Of a stretch of 64,000 bases of DNA, positions 6,600 through 55,565 are shown one piece after another (position 1 is the stretch's first letter; each line of letters opens with the position of its first letter). Location: NCBI GenBank assembly GCA_026745465.1, contig JACYXH010000310.1, positions 3,900,001-3,964,000 on the forward strand. The letters run 5' to 3'. Made by a program: the position numbers and the translations under genes. This DNA comes from Lota lota. Taxonomy: Eukaryota; Chordata; Actinopteri; Gadiformes; Lotidae. A model generated the notes under the pieces. That model worked only from the letters and a program-made list of their open reading frames with translations. It had not been told where the DNA came from and did no database searches.

Positions 6600-8241
6600 C
6601 AGTATCTCACAGAAGTGAGTACACCCCTCACATTTTTGTAAATATTTGAGTATATGTTTTCATTTGACAACACTGAAGAAATGACACTTTGCTACAATGT
6701 AAAGTAGTGAGTGTACAGCTTGTATAACAGTGTGAATTTGTTGTCCCCTCAAGATAACTCAACACACAGCCATTAATGTCTAAACCGCTGGCAACAAAAG
6801 TGAGTACACCCCTAAGTGAAAATGTCCAAATTGGGCCCAATAAGCCATTTTCCCTCCCCGGTGTCATGTGACTCGTTGGTGTTACAAGGTCTCAGGTGTG
6901 AATGGGGAGCAGGTGTGTTAAATTTGGTCTCATCGCTCTCACATTCCCTCATACTGGTCACTGGAAGTTCAACATGGCACCTCATGGCAAAGAACACTCT
7001 GAGGACCTGAAAAAAAAGAATTGTTGCTCTACATAAAGATGGCCTGGGCTATACGAAGATTGCCAAGACCCTGAAACTGAGCTGCAGCACGGTGGCCAAG
7101 ACCATACAGCGGTTTAACAGGACAGGTTCCACTAAGAACAGGCCTCGCCATGGTCGACCAAAGAAGTTGAGTGCACGTGCTCAGCGTCATATCCAGAGGT
7201 TGTCTTTGGGAAATAGACGTATGAGTGCTGCCAGCATTGCTGCAGAGGTTGAAGGGGTGGGGGGTCAGCCTGTCAGTGCTCAGACCATATGCCGCACACT
7301 GCATCAAATTGGTCTGCATGGCTGTCATCCCAGAAAGAAGCCTATTCTAAAGATGATGCACAAGAAAGCCCGCAAACAGTTTGCTGAAGACAAGCAGACT
7401 AAGGACATGGATTACTGGAACCATGTCCTGTGGTCTGATGAGACCAAGATAAACTTATTTGGTTCAGATGGTGTCAAGCGTGTGTGGCGGCAACCGGTGA
7501 GGAGTACAAAGACAATTGTGTCTTGCCTACAGTCAAGCATGGTGGTGGGAGTGTCATGGTCTGGGGCTGCATGAGTGCTGCCGGCACTGGGGAGCTACAG
7601 TTCATTGAGGGAACCATGAATGCCAACATGTACTGTGACATACTGAAGCAGAGCATGATCCCCTCCCTTCGGAGACTGGGCCGCAGGGCAGTATTCCAAC
7701 ATGATAACGATCCCAAACACACCTCCAAGACGACCACTGCCTTGCTAAAGAAGCTGAGGGTAAATGTGATGGACTGGCCAAGCATGTCTCCAGACCCAAA
7801 CCCTATTGAGCATCTGTGGGGCATCCTCAAACGGAAGGTGGAGAAGTGCAAGGTCTCTAACATCCAACAGCTCCATGATGTCGTCATGGAGGAGTGGAAG
7901 AGGACTCCAGTGGCAACCTGTGACGCTCTGGTGAACTCCATGCCCAAGAGGGTTAAGGCAGTGCTGGAAAATGATGGTGGCCACACAAAATATTGACACT
8001 TTGGGCCCAATTTGGACATTTTCACTTAGGGGTGTACTCACTTTTGTTGCCAACAGTTTAGACATTAATGGCTGTGTGTTGAGTTATTTTGAAGGGACAG
8101 CAAATTTACACTCTTATACAAGCTGTACACTCACCACTTTACATTGTAGCAAAGTGTCATTTCTTCAGTGTTGTCACATGAAAAGCTATACTCAAATATT
8201 TACAAAAATGTGAGGGGTGTACTCACTTTTGTGAGATACTG
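6600..8241 (+). mobile_element. Tc1-type DNA transposon, full length, inactive (copy 1)
   Basis: Ends are CAGTATCTCAC at the left and GTGAGATACTG at the right, flanked by TA on both sides, the Tc1/mariner target-site signature. Long inverted repeats of about 220 bp at each end contain an internal second copy of the GTGAGTACACCCC motif, an IR/DR-like layout. It encloses a broken transposase gene. The same family recurs at 27504 and 56034. The left end abuts an (ATCT)n/(TA)n microsatellite, a favoured TA target. Confidence 0.95.
6974..7996 (+). pseudogene. Tc1 transposase pseudogene (copy 1)
   Basis: The start ATGGCACCTCATGGC is in one frame. An A-run just after (7009-7016) carries an apparent +1, moving the reading frame (AKTIQRFNRTGST onward); near 7494 an apparent one-base loss after VWRQP returns it to the original frame, which runs to GGHTKY and stop at 7996. 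Paired-like DNA-binding motifs (VAKTIQRF; RRMSAASIAAEV) precede the catalytic core: D in WSDETKIN, D in QHDNDPKH, and E in NPIEHLWG, with 34 residues between the second D and the E (DD34E). The catalytic triad is intact; the two frameshifts make it inactive. Confidence 0.93.
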
Positions 8242-13964: not shown

Positions 13965-14129
13965 CTTGAGCGGTGAGATGTGCGAGTGGGACACGTAGCC
14001 GTGCACGTTCTCGATCTCCGACAGGTTCTTCTCTGACACGTGCACCAGCTCAGGGGCGCGGGCCTCGCCTGTGAGCCGCGGGAACCCCCCCTGGTCCAGG
14101 GCCGGCGAGTCCTCGTCCTGGTAGTGGTA
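13965..14129 (-). CDS. dlg2: dlg2 exon C: common MAGUK N-terminal PEST region
   Basis: A 165-nt internal exon with acceptor gacccccctccatcag before TACCAC and donor CTCAAG followed by gtcagtaac, phase 0 at both ends, 55 codons. It begins [20 protein letters not shown] and contains [19 protein letters not shown] and then [10 protein letters not shown]. This is the segment shared by alpha, beta and L27 isoforms (YRYQDED in mammals), covering the MAGUK N-terminal PEST/polyubiquitination region before PDZ1. Differences from mammals: H for R in YRYQ, one Lys fewer at the exon start, and a Pro/Gly/Ala-rich middle. Codons are GC-rich against AT-rich introns. The next exon (PDZ1 side) is not visible between 13964 and position 1. 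Confidence 0.93.
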
Positions 14130-24204: not shown

Positions 24205-24303
24205 CTTGCATCCAAACATGAGGGACAGAGAGTTGCTGGTGCAGGCCACTTTGCAGTGGCAAAGCACTGGGGTGCACTCTGGACTCTTCACTATAGGACA
24301 CAT
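24205..24303 (-). CDS. dlg2: dlg2 alternative first coding exon, PSD-93 beta, conserved ATG replaced
   Basis: The exon ends at TGCAAG before gtaggctg and encodes LCHCKVACTSNSLSLMFGCK, matching mammalian PSD-93 beta (MICHCKVACTNN then TLSLMFGCK), with the CHC palmitoylation pair and further cysteines kept. At the position of the mammalian initiator Met (24265-24267) this fish reads GTG. The nearest in-frame upstream ATG is at 24301-24303, adding MCPIVKSPECTP before the Val; the 5' boundary given here uses that ATG. Initiation could be there, at a non-AUG codon, or the exon could be non-functional. Phase 0, joining to exon C. A CU-rich tract about 190 nt long follows the donor in transcript sense. 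Confidence 0.85.
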
Positions 24304-27503: not shown

Positions 27504-29057
27504 CAGTATCTCACAAAAGTGAGTACACCCCTCACATTTTTGTAAATATTTGAGTATAGCTTTTCATGTGACAACACTGAAGAAATGACACTTTGCTACA
27601 ATGTAAAGTAGTGAGTGTACAGCTTGTATAACAGTGTAAATGTGCTGTCCCCTCAAAATAACGCAACACACAGCTATTAATGTCTAAACCGCTGGCAACA
27701 AAAGTGAGTACACCCCTAAGTGAAAATGTCCAAATTGGGCCCAAAGTGTCAATATTTTGTGTGGCCACCATCATTTTTCAGCACTGCCTTAACCCTCTTG
27801 CACTTCTCCACCTTCCGTTTGAGGATGCCCCACAGATGCTCAATAGGGTTTAGGTCTGGAGACATGCTTGGCCAGTCCATCACATTTACCCTCAGCTTCT
27901 TTAGCAAGGCAGTGGTCGTCTTGGAGGTGTGTTTGGGATCGTTATCATGTTGGGATACTGCCCTGCGGCCCAGTCTCCGAAGGGAGGGGGATCATGCTCT
28001 GCTTCAGTATGTCACAGTACATGTTGGCATTCATGGTTCCCTCAATGAACTGTAGCTCCCCAGTGCCGGCAGCACTCATGCAGCCCCAGACCATCACACT
28101 CCCACCACCATGCTTGACTGTAGGCAAGACACACTTGTCTTTGTACTCCTCACCTGGTTGCAGCCACACACGCTTGACACCATCTGAACCAAATAAGTTT
28201 ATCTTGGTCTCATCAGACCACAGGACATCCTGGACGTTCCAGTAATCCATGTCCTTAGTCTGCTTGTCTTCAGCAAACTGTTTGCGGGCTTTCTTGTGCA
28301 TCATCTTCAGAAGAGGCTTCTTTCTGGGACGACAGCCATGCAGACCAATTTGATGCAGTGTAGCGGCGTATGGTCTGAGCACTGACAGGCTGACCCCCCA
28401 CCCCTTCAACCTCTGCAGCAATGCTGGCAGCACTCATACGTCTTTTTCCCAAAGACAACCTCTGGATATGACGCTGAGCACGTGCACTCAACTTCTTTGG
28501 TTGACCATGGCGAGGCCTGTTCTGAGTGGAACCTGTCCTGTTAAACCGCTGTATGGTCTTGGCTACCGTGCTGCAGCTCAGTTTCAGGGTCTTGGCAATC
28601 TTCTTATAGCCCAGGCCATCTTTATGTAGAGCAACAATTCTTTTTTTCAGATCCTCAGAGAGAGTTCTTTGCCATGAGGTGCCATGTTGAACTTCCAGTG
28701 ACCAGTATGAGGGAGTGTGAGAGCGATGACACCAAATTTAACACACCTGCTCCCCATTCACACATGAGCCCTTGTAACACTAACGAGTCACATGACACCT
28801 GGGAGGGAAAATGGCTAATTGGGCCCAATTTGGACATTTTCACTTAGGGGTGTACTCACTTTTGTTGCCAGCGGTTTAAACATTAATGGCTGTGTGTTGA
28901 GTTATTTTGAGGGGACAGCAAATTTACAGTTATACAAGCTGTACACTCACTACTTTACATTGTAGCAAAGTGTCATTTCGTCAGTGTTGTCACATGAAAA
29001 GATATACTCAAATATTTACAAAAATGTGAGGGGTGTACTCACTTTTGTGAAATATTG
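27504..29057 (-). mobile_element. Tc1-type transposon, copy 2, internally deleted
   Basis: Same family as 6600-8241 but inverted. The left end is CAGTATCTCAC after TA. The right end reads GTGAAATATTG before TA, two transitions from the other copy. Relative to copy 1 it lacks roughly 100 bp near the transposase C terminus (break near 27800, between CCCTCTTG and CACTTCTCC). An 18-bp perfect hairpin begins exactly at its right end. Confidence 0.93.
27749..28685 (-). pseudogene. Tc1 transposase pseudogene (copy 2)
   Basis: The minus-strand ATG at 28685 is followed within about 10 codons by an apparent two-base insertion (gagagagttc region, 28661-28670). Further frameshifts lie near 28366 (after QTIRR) and 27987 (extra G in a G-run), a two-residue in-frame insertion sits at WNVQDVLWSDE, and about 100 bp are lost near 27800. 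More decayed than copy 1, with which it shares most residues, for example HKKARKQFAEDKQTKDMDYW. Confidence 0.92.
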
Positions 29058-29379: not shown

Positions 29380-31160
29380 CCCTCAACACCGCATTCAGAT
29401 CGGGGGATGCTCCGGCCTAAAGCCCATCCAGGCTAACCTGCAGAGGGGCATCAAGAAGGCCCAAGCACAGCCACAAGCTCAAAATTGAGGTGCTCTTCAA
29501 GAAAAGCGGCGACCCCCAACGCATGTGGCAAGGCCATCACGGATTACAAACCCACCAACCCCATGCCCCCAACCAGCGACGCCTCCTTCCCTGATGAGCT
29601 TAACAGCTTTTACGCCCGCTTTGACTGGGACAGCCAGGAGGCGGCCATCAAGGCTGTGCTCTCCGCAGACCACCCAGTACCTCACACACTCCTCCACCGA
29701 CGTATGTGCCGCCCTGAGCGGGATTAATGCACGCAAGGCTGCTGGCCTTGATGGCCTCCCTGGACGCGTGCTCAGGGCATGTGCTGGGCAGCTGACTGAC
29801 TTGACTGACGTCCTCAACCTGTCACTGGCCCAAGCAGCTGTCCCTATGTGCTTTAAAACCACCTCCATTGGGCTGGTGCCAAAACAGTCCACTGCAACAA
29901 GCCTTACTGACTTCCGCATTGTTGCTCTCACCCCCACCATCTCGAAGTGCTTCAGGAGGCTGGTCCTGGCTCACCTCAAAACCTGTCTACGGGGGGCGAT
30001 CATACAGAGGCGCGCCCGTCGCTAGAAAAGCCTTGCCAGCAAAACCATTGTTTTCCTATGGAACGGCATGCAGCTGCTGCTTTACCCGACGTTCTTAGCC
30101 AAAGCGTCTTGAATTTTTTAAGCGGCCGCGTTTCTAGCGACGCGCCTCAGTGTGATCGCCGCCTACCACTCCACACTGGACCCCCTCCAATTCGTCTACC
30201 GCCAAAACGATGCCATCTCCACTGCATTACAATCCACCCTCTCCCACCTTTACAACAGTACATGAGAACGCTGTTCATCAAATTCAGTTCAGAATTCAAC
30301 ACCATCATCCGTTCTAAATTGCTCCCCAAACTCAGTGACCTGGGCATCAACACCTCCCTCTGCAACTGGATACTGGACTTCCTAACCGACAGACCCCAGT
30401 TTGTTAGGTTAGACAACCTTACCTCCTCAACCTTCTTCCTGAACCCCAGCGTCCCACAGGGCTGTGTGCCGAGTCCTCTCCTCGTCTCCCTCTTCACCTA
30501 CAACTGCACATGGTTCTAATACCGTTTTGCATGAGGCCAATGGTGGTTGGCCTCATCAGCGACAACAATGACTCGGCATCCAGGGAGGACCAGGAGGTCC
30601 AGCAACTAGCAGCGTGGTGCGCTGACAACAACGTGGTTCTGAACACCAAGAAGATACCGGATAACCAAAGGTAGCACACACACCCCCATCGTATCAACAG
30701 GACGGAGGTTGAGTGTGATGTCAGCTACATCAACACATGAACCCTGGACAGGAATGCTCACCAGTGCCTCTTCTCCTTGAGGAGACTGAAGAAGGTCCAT
30801 CTGTCTCCTTCGATTCTGGTGAACTACTACCGCTGCACCATCGAGAGCATCCTAACCAACTGAATCACAGTATGGCGTTGCAACTGATCTGTTCGGACCG
30901 CAAAGCAATTGAGAGAGTGGTGAAAACTGCCCAACATATTAGCGGTTCCTCACTCCCAACATTGAGGCTGTCCAGTGCATGCAAGGTCTGCTGAGGGACG
31001 TGCAGTATCGTCAGGGACAGCTCCCATCCCAGCCACAGACTGTTTGACCTCCTCCCCTCTGGGAGGCGCTGCAGGACTCTCCGTTCAGTTCCTGGTTCAG
31101 GAACAGCTTCTTCCTTGTGGCTGTCACTCTGCTGAACTCTGCACCACGGTGAAATCTTAA
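29380..31160 (+). pseudogene. L2/Rex1-like LINE ORF2 relic
   Basis: Ordered fragments of a reverse transcriptase: NARKAAGLDGLPGRVLRACA, FKTTSIGLVPKQ and [18 protein letters not shown], then an inserted foldback element (29994-30161), LDPLQF.YR remnants, [20 protein letters not shown] (motif A with catalytic Asp lost), [29 protein letters not shown] (motif B), a destroyed YxDD region near 30530, and QQLAAWCADNNVVLN. Downstream C-terminal pieces run to about 31150 with several stops. GC-rich against surroundings. No intact frame longer than 190 codons. Confidence 0.88.
29994..30161. mobile_element. 168-bp foldback/MITE inserted in the LINE relic
   Basis: The left arm at 29994-30028 reads GGGCGATCATACAGAGGCGCG and then TCGCTAGAAA; the right arm at 30131-30160 is its inverse with two mismatches and a 2-3 nt indel. 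CTAC occurs just outside each arm (29987-29990 and 30163-30166), a possible 4-bp target duplication. No coding capacity. It interrupts the reverse transcriptase reading, so it inserted after the LINE. Confidence 0.65.
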
Positions 31161-39846: not shown

Positions 39847-39888
39847 CTTCCGGTGTGATCGCAGGGAACAATAGCAGACAAAAAACAT
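39847..39888 (-). CDS. dlg2: dlg2 alternative first coding exon, PSD-93 alpha
   Basis: Fourteen codons from ATG (39888-39886), MFFVCYCSLRSHRK, ending exactly at donor gtaaggga. Mammalian PSD-93 alpha starts MFFACYCALRTNVKK, so most of the first ten residues match and both cysteines of the palmitoylation motif (Cys5, Cys7) are kept. Phase 0, joining to exon C as HRK-YHYQDED. The region upstream on the transcript (39889 to about 40140) is open sequence suited to a 5' UTR. A GC-rich block with an X-box lies about 1.5-1.9 kb upstream. An inverted repeat (39185-39590) sits in the intron just downstream of the donor. Diagnostic for dlg2 over other DLG paralogs. Confidence 0.92.
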
Positions 39889-41114
39889 GGCAGCCTTGGA
39901 GCGACATGAAGCGTCTGGAGGGGCATTGGTGGTCACTCGCTTATCCCTTAGACGGTGGCATGATAAGCCAAGAGCATAGCCACGGCATCACAAGAGACCG
40001 AGAAGGTAGCAGTAGCATCTCTGAGCGTGAGATACTCCTACTCTAGCATCATCCTCCCCCCAGCCTTCTTCTTTCTTTTGTAAATAGCATCACTTGATGC
40101 AAAGCTACAGCTCAGAGGCGTGGAACTCAGCTGTCGCGAGAGCGAGAGAGAGAGAGAGAGAGACACAGACTTGTGATTTTTTGTGTCCAAGGATCATTAG
40201 TTGTTTTTTTAGAAGCTACAAATTAAAATGGCCCTCTAATTTGTGGAAAACACTGGGTGTCTTAGTTTGCAGCGTGTTGCACCCCACCTAGGATGAAATA
40301 TTCTCACATGCCGCATTACATAACAAGCTGTACTCCACAGTGTCACTCCACAGCACTCTGCAGGAAGTCTTAATATTCCACAATTGCTGGCTCTAACTTG
40401 GTTTAAACTATTTTCAGCACAGAACAGCCATTAACTTCACATTACAAATGAAGGACGAGAGCAGGAAGTCAACAAACATATCTGCAAATGTTTGGCAATG
40501 GGAAATGGGAAATTGTACATTTTGGCCCGTTAATTCCAATTATCAAATAGCATCCATGCAAAGAGAGAAAACAAGGAAAAGTCAAAGCAATTCTGAAACT
40601 GTGTTTATCTTTGCAAAATATGAAACATGGACAGTAAATAGAATGGGGACAGCAAATACATTTGTGACAAGTGGCATGTGTGACAAACTGACAAATGTGT
40701 GATGTGTTAATTATCTTACAGACTAGTTCTTAAGTGGTCGGGTTACATGTTTGAACCAAAAGATAATGTTCACACAACCGCCAATTCCATTTTGTTATGC
40801 CCAGATAGCCACGTGACTTTATATTCAAATTATTATTATTTATTAGTGTTATATAATATGGGAAATTTATATGGAAGTTATGTTATTGTGTGACACAAGT
40901 AAACCGGGCATGATGAGAAAATATGTTGTATTCAATGTAAATAATGTAGTTAGATAATGTAGATGCATCTGAACATAGTAGTTTAAGATAAATCAGACTA
41001 CAGATTGCATCTACACCTTGTGCTGTTGCTGCACATCTGAACCAGAGAGAACACACACAGCTCTAATAGCTGCATGCAAATATCTGCATGTGACACCAGC
41101 GTCTTTCTTCTGTC

Positions 41115-41420
41115 CATCCCTATGCCGTTGAATTAAATCAGAATAATTTCTTTAAATAAAATCTGAATGACGTCGTAACATGAAATCTGAAGGATGTCGA
41201 TAAATAAAATCATAATCATGTCATCGAATCAAATCACAATGTCGTTAAATACAATCTGAATCACCTCGTTAACTCAAATCCAAATCGTTTCAGCGAATCA
41301 AAATCCGAAGGATGACATTGAATCAAATCTAAATGAGGTCATCGCACCGAATCTGAATCACGTCGCCCACGTCGACTCCTGACGTTGAATAACATCAGAA
41401 CCGCGTCAATGAATCAAAAG
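41115..41420. repeat. CpG-bearing minisatellite (about 27-30 bp unit)
   Basis: Roughly ten diverged copies of a motif near AAATCTGAATCACGTCGTTG plus AATCAA. Each unit carries one or two CpGs (ATGTCG, ACGTCG, ATCG). It abuts the GC-rich block at 41406. Confidence 0.8.
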
Positions 41421-41760
41421 AGCTCGTCGGTTGTTTATTCTACCGAAGACCCGGCAGCTCCAGCAGCTCCTGCGGCGCGGCCCGTGAGAGGAGAGGGGAG
41501 GAGGGTCAGGGACAAGTGCCTGCCGTCTCATTGAAGACAGAGCCGTGTGAGAGTGGGCCCGCGCTTCATCTCCGTGTGTCACCGGAGGGAGCCGGCAGCC
41601 TTGGGGAGGCGAATACACAGGCAGCGTGGTTGTATGTGGGCAGATGCGCCAGCCAGGCAGGCTGAATGTAGTGGGAGGTATCAAAGATGCTGTATAGAAT
41701 ATATTTTTGGTGCCAGCCTCCCTGTTACCGTGGTAACTGTCCATCGATTCAGCGCTTAGC
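41406..41760 (-). promoter_or_regulatory. GC/CpG-rich block with RFX X-box, candidate promoter of PSD-93 alpha
   Basis: Roughly 16 CpGs in the first 240 bp, and the palindromic X-box GTTACCGTGGTAAC at 41724-41737, which fits the RFX consensus GTNRCC(N0-3)RGYAAC on both strands. The block lies about 1.5-1.9 kb upstream of the alpha ATG in transcript sense. A minisatellite (41115-41420) abuts it. The 212-codon minus-strand open frame across this block has no recognisable protein and looks like GC-rich non-coding sequence. Confidence 0.4.
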
Positions 41761-46601: not shown

Positions 46602-46631
46602 CTTGGTGGTGACAATGCAAAGACAATCCAT
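46602..46631 (-). CDS. dlg2: dlg2 alternative first coding exon, PSD-95 type (MDCLCIVTTK)
   Basis: Reads ATG GAT TGT CTT TGC ATT GTC ACC ACC AAG and then gtaagagg, a strong donor. The decapeptide MDCLCIVTTK is identical to the N terminus I know from PSD-95 (DLG4) and the SAP97 (DLG1) alpha isoform, where Cys3 and Cys5 are palmitoylated for synaptic membrane targeting. It ends in phase 0, so it can join exon C to give TTK-YHYQDED. The ATG context is GACCAGCATGG. Upstream on the transcript lie about 180 bases of GC-rich 5' UTR-like sequence, a possible acceptor (ttactttcag, exon edge near 46809), the 46858-47005 CA array and a CpG-dense block. I did not expect this exon within dlg2. A chance match of ten codons ending exactly at a donor is very unlikely. 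Confidence 0.88.
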
Positions 46632-46855
46632 GCTGGTCGGAGGCAGGAAAGTGAAGTGGCAGTCTCAACCTATGCTAAGATTCATAACTGCCGCCGCAGC
46701 CGCATCCGAATTACCGTCCAACGCGGGCCAGATGTGGGCAAGAAATAAGGAAAAGAAACGATAGCGGCTCGTGAAATACAGAGGAAAAAGAAACAAAGAT
46801 GAGGTCCCCCTGAAAGTAAAGGCAGAGGAGGAGAAGAGGAGGCGCTGACACACAG

Positions 46856-47450
<595 letters not shown>

Positions 47451-48130
47451 CTTCATACATAGTTCAGTGTAAGCAGCTGGCAGGTAGCATCACACGCTAC
47501 TACCGAATTGACTGCACACGACACAGACGATGATGTCAACGTACAGTAGGCGTAGCACTGAGCTAGATGTATGCCGCAAGTATGTATTTGCAAGTCGAGC
47601 AAGTGTGCGCCCACGTACATTTATACGAGAGAGAAAAAAGGTTAATTGTGGCCTACTTCATTGAGATTTATTTATCATCATCTTAACACAAATCAATTAT
47701 GGATATATTTTAAGTTACTTAAAAGTGATGACTAATAGTCAAGCACATCAAAAAGATTATTGAAAGCCTAAAACTTCAGATTGTCCCGCCAACACATTGT
47801 CCTACTACAGCTTATGTAATGGTCAGTTACTTTAGGGAGAGCGCTTTTCAAAATAAACAGGATTAGATACCACCTTTAACAAACTGTAGCACTGTGAAAA
47901 ACGTATAATGGACAGCATACTGCACAGTTTGTACATGTCCTCCCAGACATGCATGCTTTTCAGTTTATACATTCATGTAACAGCGTACATGGATCAGTTT
48001 CCACAGCTAAAAATCCCAACAAAAAGTCTAGTCTAAAAATACTTTATTCTCAATGAACCAAAACCAACAATACTGCACAATACACCAAACAAATACGTAA
48101 TTGCCATGACACTGTGCACTCAAAAGTCTT

Positions 48131-55407: not shown

Positions 55408-55565
55408 CTCTTCCTTCTGTACGGAGCAGGGTGTCTGGGCGACCTCAGGGTCCGGCAGTGTGACGGCCTTCTCCCACCTGTCAGCCATGTGGGTGACCTC
55501 CTCCAGCTTCTGCTCACAGCTCTTGTGGGTGTTGAGGAGCGTCAACTCATAGAACTCCTGGATAT
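55408..55565 (-). CDS. dlg2: dlg2 exon A: end of L27 domain and linker
   Basis: A 158-nt internal exon. The acceptor is cctccag before ATATCCAG and the donor is GAAGAG followed by gtgagag. It enters in phase 1 (the previous exon supplies the G of a GAT codon) and leaves in phase 0, giving 52 whole codons. The protein begins (D)IQEFYELTLLNTHKSCEQ and continues KLEEVTHMADRWEKAV. DIQEFYE directly follows the L27 helices in L27-containing DLG isoforms, and the SCEQK..EE pattern matches the long DLG2 isoform. L27 domains drive MAGUK oligomerisation and partner binding. The remainder is a weakly conserved linker ending CSVQKEE. The (CA)n tract, read on the transcript, starts about 17 nt after the donor. 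Confidence 0.9.

Follow-up and report, generated by a model that had tools for sequence, protein, structure and literature searches.

A candidate PSD-95-type alternative 5' coding exon in the dlg2 locus of Lota lota

The N-terminus decides how a DLG scaffold is placed: a lipid anchors it in the postsynaptic density, or L27 recruits it. Among the isoforms, PSD-95-alpha and SAP97-alpha bear a lipid, and L27 is found in the beta forms; in PSD-95, palmitate is attached to Cys3 and Cys5 of the residues MDCLCIVTTK, and for PSD-93 six N-termini are listed, of which two are palmitoylated (PMC6365469, available portion). Here, we asked whether dlg2, the gene for PSD-93, could also start with the PSD-95 anchor. 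The question arises from 30 bases in a 64,000-nucleotide stretch of the Lota lota genome (hereafter the window), which an earlier note had read as a palmitoylated N-terminal exon of PSD-95 type embedded in dlg2.

The MDCLCIVTTK exon and the gene around it

On the minus strand, positions 46631-46602 read ATGGATTGTCTTTGCATTGTCACCACCAAG followed by GTAAGAGGC, that is, MDCLCIVTTK and a donor, and the letters thus confirm the ATG, the DCLCIVTTK and the donor reported in the earlier note. The start context, ACCAGCATGG, has A at -3 and G at +4, and the donor is near-consensus. Two ATGs lie within 260 bases upstream, and the in-frame one (46685) meets a stop after six residues. The exon and its surroundings are as follows.

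46602..46631, minus strand: MDCLCIVTTK, a coding exon of alpha type in a strong Kozak context; donor GTAAGAGG, phase 0; paralogues in dlg1, dlg1-like and dlg4
C310:3968407-3968562 (near 68547, outside the window), minus strand: first L27 exon found in dlg2, by protein probing
55408..55565, minus strand: second L27 exon, dlg2 beta form (DIQEFYELTLL...QKEE), by probing and Pfam; phase-0 donor
39847..39888, minus strand: PSD-93 alpha1 first exon, MFFVCYCSLRSHRK; donor GTAAGG
24205..24303, minus strand: PSD-93 alpha2 (beta in Parker naming) first exon, MCPIVKSPECTPVLCHCKVACTSNSLSLMFGCK; donor GTAGGC
13965..14129, minus strand: shared exon (...SHISPLK, MAGUK_N_PEST), predicted splice partner; phase 0

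The exon has the hallmarks of an alpha-type start: an ATG with a short peptide carrying Cys3 and Cys5 (named reference, PDB 2mes), a phase-0 donor that would fit the shared MAGUK_N_PEST exon, and a place between the L27 (beta) exons and that shared exon. Along the contig (C310), the L27 exons lie at 3968407 and 3955456, the MDCLC exon at 3946602 and the shared exon at 3913965.

To delimit the gene, 264 kb of C310 were probed with three proteins, DLG1, DLG2 and DLG4; the MDCLC and MFF exons are below the length cut-off of this probing and were located by separate searches. The exons of dlg2 follow each other in order on the minus strand over ~118 kb, reaching 49.8 kb below the window, and Pfam recognizes L27_1 and MAGUK_N_PEST at the locus. 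This ordered, single-strand series of L27, PSD-93-type first, PEST, PDZ, SH3 and GUK exons bears out dlg2 as the surrounding gene. The shared exon runs from 14129 (TAC, preceded by ...CCATCAG) to 13965 (followed by GTCAGT), and the PDZ1, PDZ2, PDZ3, SH3 and GUK exons come after it; with phase 0 on both sides, 14129 stands as the partner position that the earlier note had proposed.

Most PDZ, SH3 and GUK exons scored best with the DLG2 probe, with near ties for PDZ3 and SH3 with DLG1 and for PDZ3 also with DLG4, and with one GUK exon at 75.5 for DLG1 vs 74.3 for DLG2. Against single-PDZ PDB chains, DLG2 came first for PDZ1 (171 bits; DLG1 151, DLG4 145) and, by a small margin, for PDZ2 (158.5 vs 155.7 for a DLG1 chain). 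Five PSD-95 chains with several PDZ domains outscored DLG2 in each of the two PDB searches, which we read as the sum of their domains. These DLG2-best exons, some of them near ties with DLG1 or DLG4, occur together with first exons of PSD-93 type. A degenerate pattern for the first residues of alpha1 (MFF) has one exact match in the genome, at dlg2. In the alpha2 exon (24303-24205, minus strand), an upstream in-frame ATG gives MCPIVKSPECTPVLCHCK..., and the peptide, MCPIVKSPEC...LCHC...GCK, contains Cys10 plus Cys2. This Cys10 agrees with Cys10 of full-length mammalian PSD93beta, mutation of which is reported to cut ZDHHC14-dependent palmitoylation by 88% (PMC7685708, available portion).

Chance was rejected as the origin of the decapeptide. 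Its exact sequence is expected 4e-9 times in the window (both strands, regional base composition) and 3.6e-5 times in the whole 575 Mb genome (867 contigs), and none of 300 scrambled decapeptides matched the 264 kb around dlg2. The window was also scanned blindly for stretches of 9-30 codons that begin with an ATG, carry two Cys among their first 8 residues and end at a phase-0 AG/GTRAG donor. Of the three candidates, one is the MDCLCIVTTK exon and another that of PSD-93 alpha1; the third, MVSSVCGCNQ at 28183, is probably due to chance. An exact 20-base pattern had no match in the genome, and the exon-plus-donor pattern had none in a viral-contig and a genome-contig collection, neither of which is meant for vertebrates.

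The window has other features as well. A second CpG-dense block (41001-41700; up to 34 CpG per 500 bp, o/e 1.23) lies ~1.2 kb upstream of the MFFVCYC exon. A third CpG-rich stretch (29501-30500) has long overlapping ORFs on both strands and no DLG exon match. The translations of 28154-28689 (minus strand) and 6855-7262 (plus strand), which gave weak incidental tblastn matches, resemble Tc1/mariner-type transposase.

Copies of the exon in other DLG genes

At least six loci for DLG proteins with three PDZ domains are present in the genome. Scored exon by exon, C310 is dlg2, C285 dlg1, C764 dlg4 and C425 dlg3 (SH3 95% to DLG3); C637 is closest to dlg4, and C109 (dlg1-like) is closest to dlg1 in most, not all, exons and by small margins. 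There are in this way two dlg1-like and two dlg4-like loci. A genome scan with a degenerate decapeptide pattern, allowing up to 2 mismatches, hit 4 places, all in DLG genes, and the reversed pattern hit none. The exon is accordingly found in 4 of the 6 DLG loci, each time with a GT donor, and the copies read as follows.

dlg2: MDCLCIVTTK
dlg4: MDCLCIVTTK
dlg1: MDCICIVTTK
dlg1-like: MDCICILTTK

The identity with dlg4 and the paralogous exon in dlg1 uphold the earlier note's assignment to the PSD-95/SAP97-alpha type. At up to 3 mismatches, neither dlg3 nor the second dlg4-like locus shows a copy, and the exon can therefore be lost. Two further 3-mismatch places (C249 and C363) were set aside as chance matches: they have no ATG, the reversed control gave 1, and on those contigs the nearest DLG-probe match listed is millions of bases away.

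In dlg1 on C285, L27 lies at 1100099, a second, weak L27 match (E 0.37) at 1091765, the MDCIC exon at 1086667 and the shared exon at 1070947. With that weak second match, the order L27, L27, MDC exon, shared exon is the same as in dlg2. The comparison of L27 order is with dlg1 alone, since dlg4 and the dlg1-like gene gave no L27 match; in these two, the shared-exon match follows the MDC exon on the same strand after 38 kb (dlg4) and 20 kb (dlg1-like).

Two observations concern the paralogues themselves. An L27 exon match (E 6.8e-5) lies at C425:117600-117746 on the plus strand, 37 kb upstream of the dlg3 PDZ exons and on the same strand as they are. The shared exon of dlg4 (C764:2018150-2018450) carries a LHMSDKNLAAMEALHGYTPHTHISPVK segment like that of DLG1/DLG2; to our knowledge, human PSD-95 has no such segment.

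Upstream region and history of the exon

The earlier note had placed the densest CpG block of the window in front of the exon, and the counts agree: the top 500-bp window is 47001-47500, 0.4-0.9 kb upstream, with 41 CpG and o/e 0.96 (mean of all windows, 10.0 CpG). The upstream features are the following.

46901..47700, no strand: CpG island-like block, putative promoter of the MDCLCIVTTK exon; the four 500-bp windows starting at 46901-47201 have 31-41 CpG and o/e 0.91-1.00
46848..47005, no strand: (TG)78 microsatellite, between the CpG peak and the exon
46632..46662, minus strand: leader upstream of the ATG, ending in the acceptor-like CTTTCCTGCCTCCGACCAG followed by C; 97.1 percentile on a home-made score

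The CpG block is a plausible promoter of the exon, and the leader would be either 5'UTR or the 3' splice site of an internal exon. In the second case, the MDCLCIVTTK exon would not be a true first exon but an internal one of 31 nt (C + 30 nt) behind a non-coding leader in the CpG block. The CpG peak is indeed 0.4-0.9 kb away, and each of the four paralogous exons has an acceptor-like AG 1-4 nt ahead of its ATG, three of these AGs standing above the 95th percentile of our crude score (percentiles are among scored AGs on the minus strand of the window, where the shared-exon acceptor reaches 92.9); of the 1303 ATGs on that strand, 105 score at least as high as the lowest of the four. However, the dlg1-like copy reaches merely the 79.7 percentile, and the A at -3 doubles as the Kozak base. 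Moreover, the MDCLCIVTTK exon is not alone in having this signal: such an AG also precedes alpha2 (98.2 percentile) and, in weaker form, alpha1 (87.4). We regard an internal exon as somewhat unlikely. Because the protein would be identical, it would be a variant of the first-exon reading and not exclusive of it, with control via splicing as well as via the promoter.

Could the exon instead be a non-functional relic of an ancestral alpha exon, its role having been assumed by the alpha1 and alpha2 exons of dlg2? The pattern of conservation speaks against this. In-register blastn similarity among the copies extends over 33-45 bases, covering the exon and donor only; besides it, dlg2 and dlg1 share a single weak match of 26 bases, out of register, and there are repeats within single copies. 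In the six pairs, 28-31 of the 36 positions of exon plus donor are identical; of the 200 positions on either side, 37-86 are identical upstream and 44-61 downstream. Upstream, ungapped comparison gives 37-47 identities for the three pairs that include dlg2 and 71-86 for the other three, and GA-rich repeats are visible upstream of the dlg4 and dlg1 copies. The dlg2 and dlg4 exons differ at six bases, all synonymous, with no amino-acid change; dlg2 and dlg1 differ at four bases, with Leu4 changed to Ile, and dlg2 and dlg1-like by two amino acids. Under neutral change, all ten residues would survive with P ~2e-5 at 0.5 substitutions per site; at 1.0 substitutions per site they did so in none of 200000 simulated runs. 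With the ten residues, the start context and the donor intact between dissimilar flanks, a relic is improbable.

A recent insertion or copy of the dlg4 or dlg1 first exon into dlg2 would account for the decapeptide being identical to that of dlg4, but it is less probable still: in-register similarity ends with the exon and donor, six synonymous differences separate it from dlg4, and the exon holds the same ordinal place as the dlg1 exon. Finally, that the locus is dlg1 and the exon an ordinary SAP97-alpha, as parts of the shared exon resembling DLG1 and the near-tied DLG1/DLG2 probe scores of SH3 and the first GUK exon might suggest, can be dismissed with near certainty, given the whole-gene comparison, the single-domain PDB ranking, the MFFVCYC and LCHCKVAC exons of PSD-93 type at the locus and a separate dlg1 gene on C285.

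Since similarity is limited to 33-45 bases and all changes between dlg2 and dlg4 are synonymous, the most likely reading is an alpha-type exon that is old and under selection, neither relic nor recent insertion. The neutral-survival probability, the dissimilar flanks and the order in dlg1 together make parallel insertion unlikely. Retention under selection from the ancestor shared by DLG1, DLG2 and DLG4 is the simplest reading of this one genome; of the two histories that the earlier note had offered, this is the better one, the dlg1 exon having the same place and the flanks being dissimilar. We therefore consider it quite likely that these 30 bases serve dlg2 as a functional, alternative coding exon at its 5' end, paralogous to the PSD-95-alpha/SAP97-alpha start exon and kept in its ancestral place. 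Counted against this reading is the uneven CpG block near the MDC exon, which is present in dlg2 (42 CpG in the best 500 bp) and dlg1 (41) and absent from dlg4 and dlg1-like (20 each).

Predicted product and comparison with known N-termini

Our model suggests that transcripts would start at the upstream CpG block, the putative promoter, and that the MDCLCIVTTK exon would be joined in phase to 14129. The donors of this exon, the second L27 exon, alpha1 and alpha2 are all phase 0, as is the acceptor at 14129, so the four 5' parts of dlg2 are interchangeable on one acceptor. The predicted product is a PSD-93 without L27 that opens MDCLCIVTTK-YHYQDED, which palmitoylation at Cys3 and Cys5 would anchor at synaptic membranes, beside the alpha1 (MFFVCYC) and Cys-rich alpha2 forms. 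Searched against the PDB at E up to 10, the spliced N-terminus had two matches, both PSD-95 (2mes and 2xkx).

The minimal diacylation sequence of PSD-95, MDCLCIVTTKKYR, contains the basic residues Lys10, Lys11 and Arg13. The shared exon opens AAG TAC (Lys-Tyr) in dlg1 and dlg4 and TAC CAC in dlg2, and the predicted dlg2 start keeps Lys10, lacks Lys11 and has His for Arg13. Thus, the earlier note's "PSD-95-like lipidated PSD-93" holds for the type of N-terminus, but the product is not fully PSD-95-like. In PSD-95, Lys11 and Arg13 are reported to help S-acylation, and the mutants K10,11A and K10,11A/R13A are mainly soluble (PMC6944663, available portion). With Lys11 missing and Arg13 replaced, basal lipidation of the dlg2 form may be weaker than that of PSD-95; as Lys10 is kept, our guess is that it would not be abolished. 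Going further, we tentatively propose, with less than even confidence, that dlg2 still makes the ancestral PSD-95-type alpha form in addition to two PSD-93-specific lipidated forms, and so has three lipid anchors plus L27, the ancestral anchor being weaker and more enzyme-dependent through the loss of Lys11/Arg13. If so, mammalian DLG2 would have dropped or altered the exon, or would hold it as alpha0.

An intact PSD-95 anchor in dlg2 suggests that the choice between alpha and beta forms is older than the split of DLG1, DLG2 and DLG4. It also warns that PSD-95-type and PSD-93-type anchoring are not fixed properties of the paralogues, and it offers a natural variant, with neither Lys11 nor Arg13, for gauging the weight of basic residues in lipidation.

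In the 5.39 million open papers searched, the decapeptide and its first seven residues occur in a single one, in a passage on PSD-95, and among the papers listed on DLG2/PSD-93 isoforms, fish and DLG evolution none was found to name a dlg2 MDCLCIVTTK exon. The novelty is nevertheless modest: alpha0 is already described in mouse, and the exon may be annotated in gene or transcript databases. The earlier note's view that this is no standard PSD-93 isoform is likewise left uncertain by alpha0, a third palmitoylated exon of mouse Dlg2 that is spliced to exon 4 (PMC6389146, available portion) and hence lies upstream of it. A published primer, used to seek the mouse exon-4 equivalent in the window, gave best matches with 6 of 20 mismatches, none convincing.

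Going by its description in that source, alpha0 resembles the MDCLCIVTTK exon as a third palmitoylated alpha exon and could be its orthologue; unlike it, alpha0 is joined to exon 4 and not directly to the exon common to alpha1/alpha2 (PMC6389146). The PSD-93 alpha1 and alpha2 first exons, both present here, share the gene, the acceptor, the phase and at least two N-terminal cysteines, but their peptides are different (MFFVCYC... and MCPIVKSPEC...LCHC...). The SAP97-alpha exon of DLG1 is alike in position, since the dlg1 copy of this genome likewise has L27 matches (the second weak) on one side and the shared exon on the other; it differs in reading MDCICIVTTK and in retaining Lys11 and Arg13. 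Closest in sequence is the first coding exon of PSD-95-alpha (DLG4), with the same ten residues and a phase-0 donor feeding the MAGUK_N_PEST exon, whereas the exon described here sits in dlg2 and would yield a product without Lys11 and Arg13.
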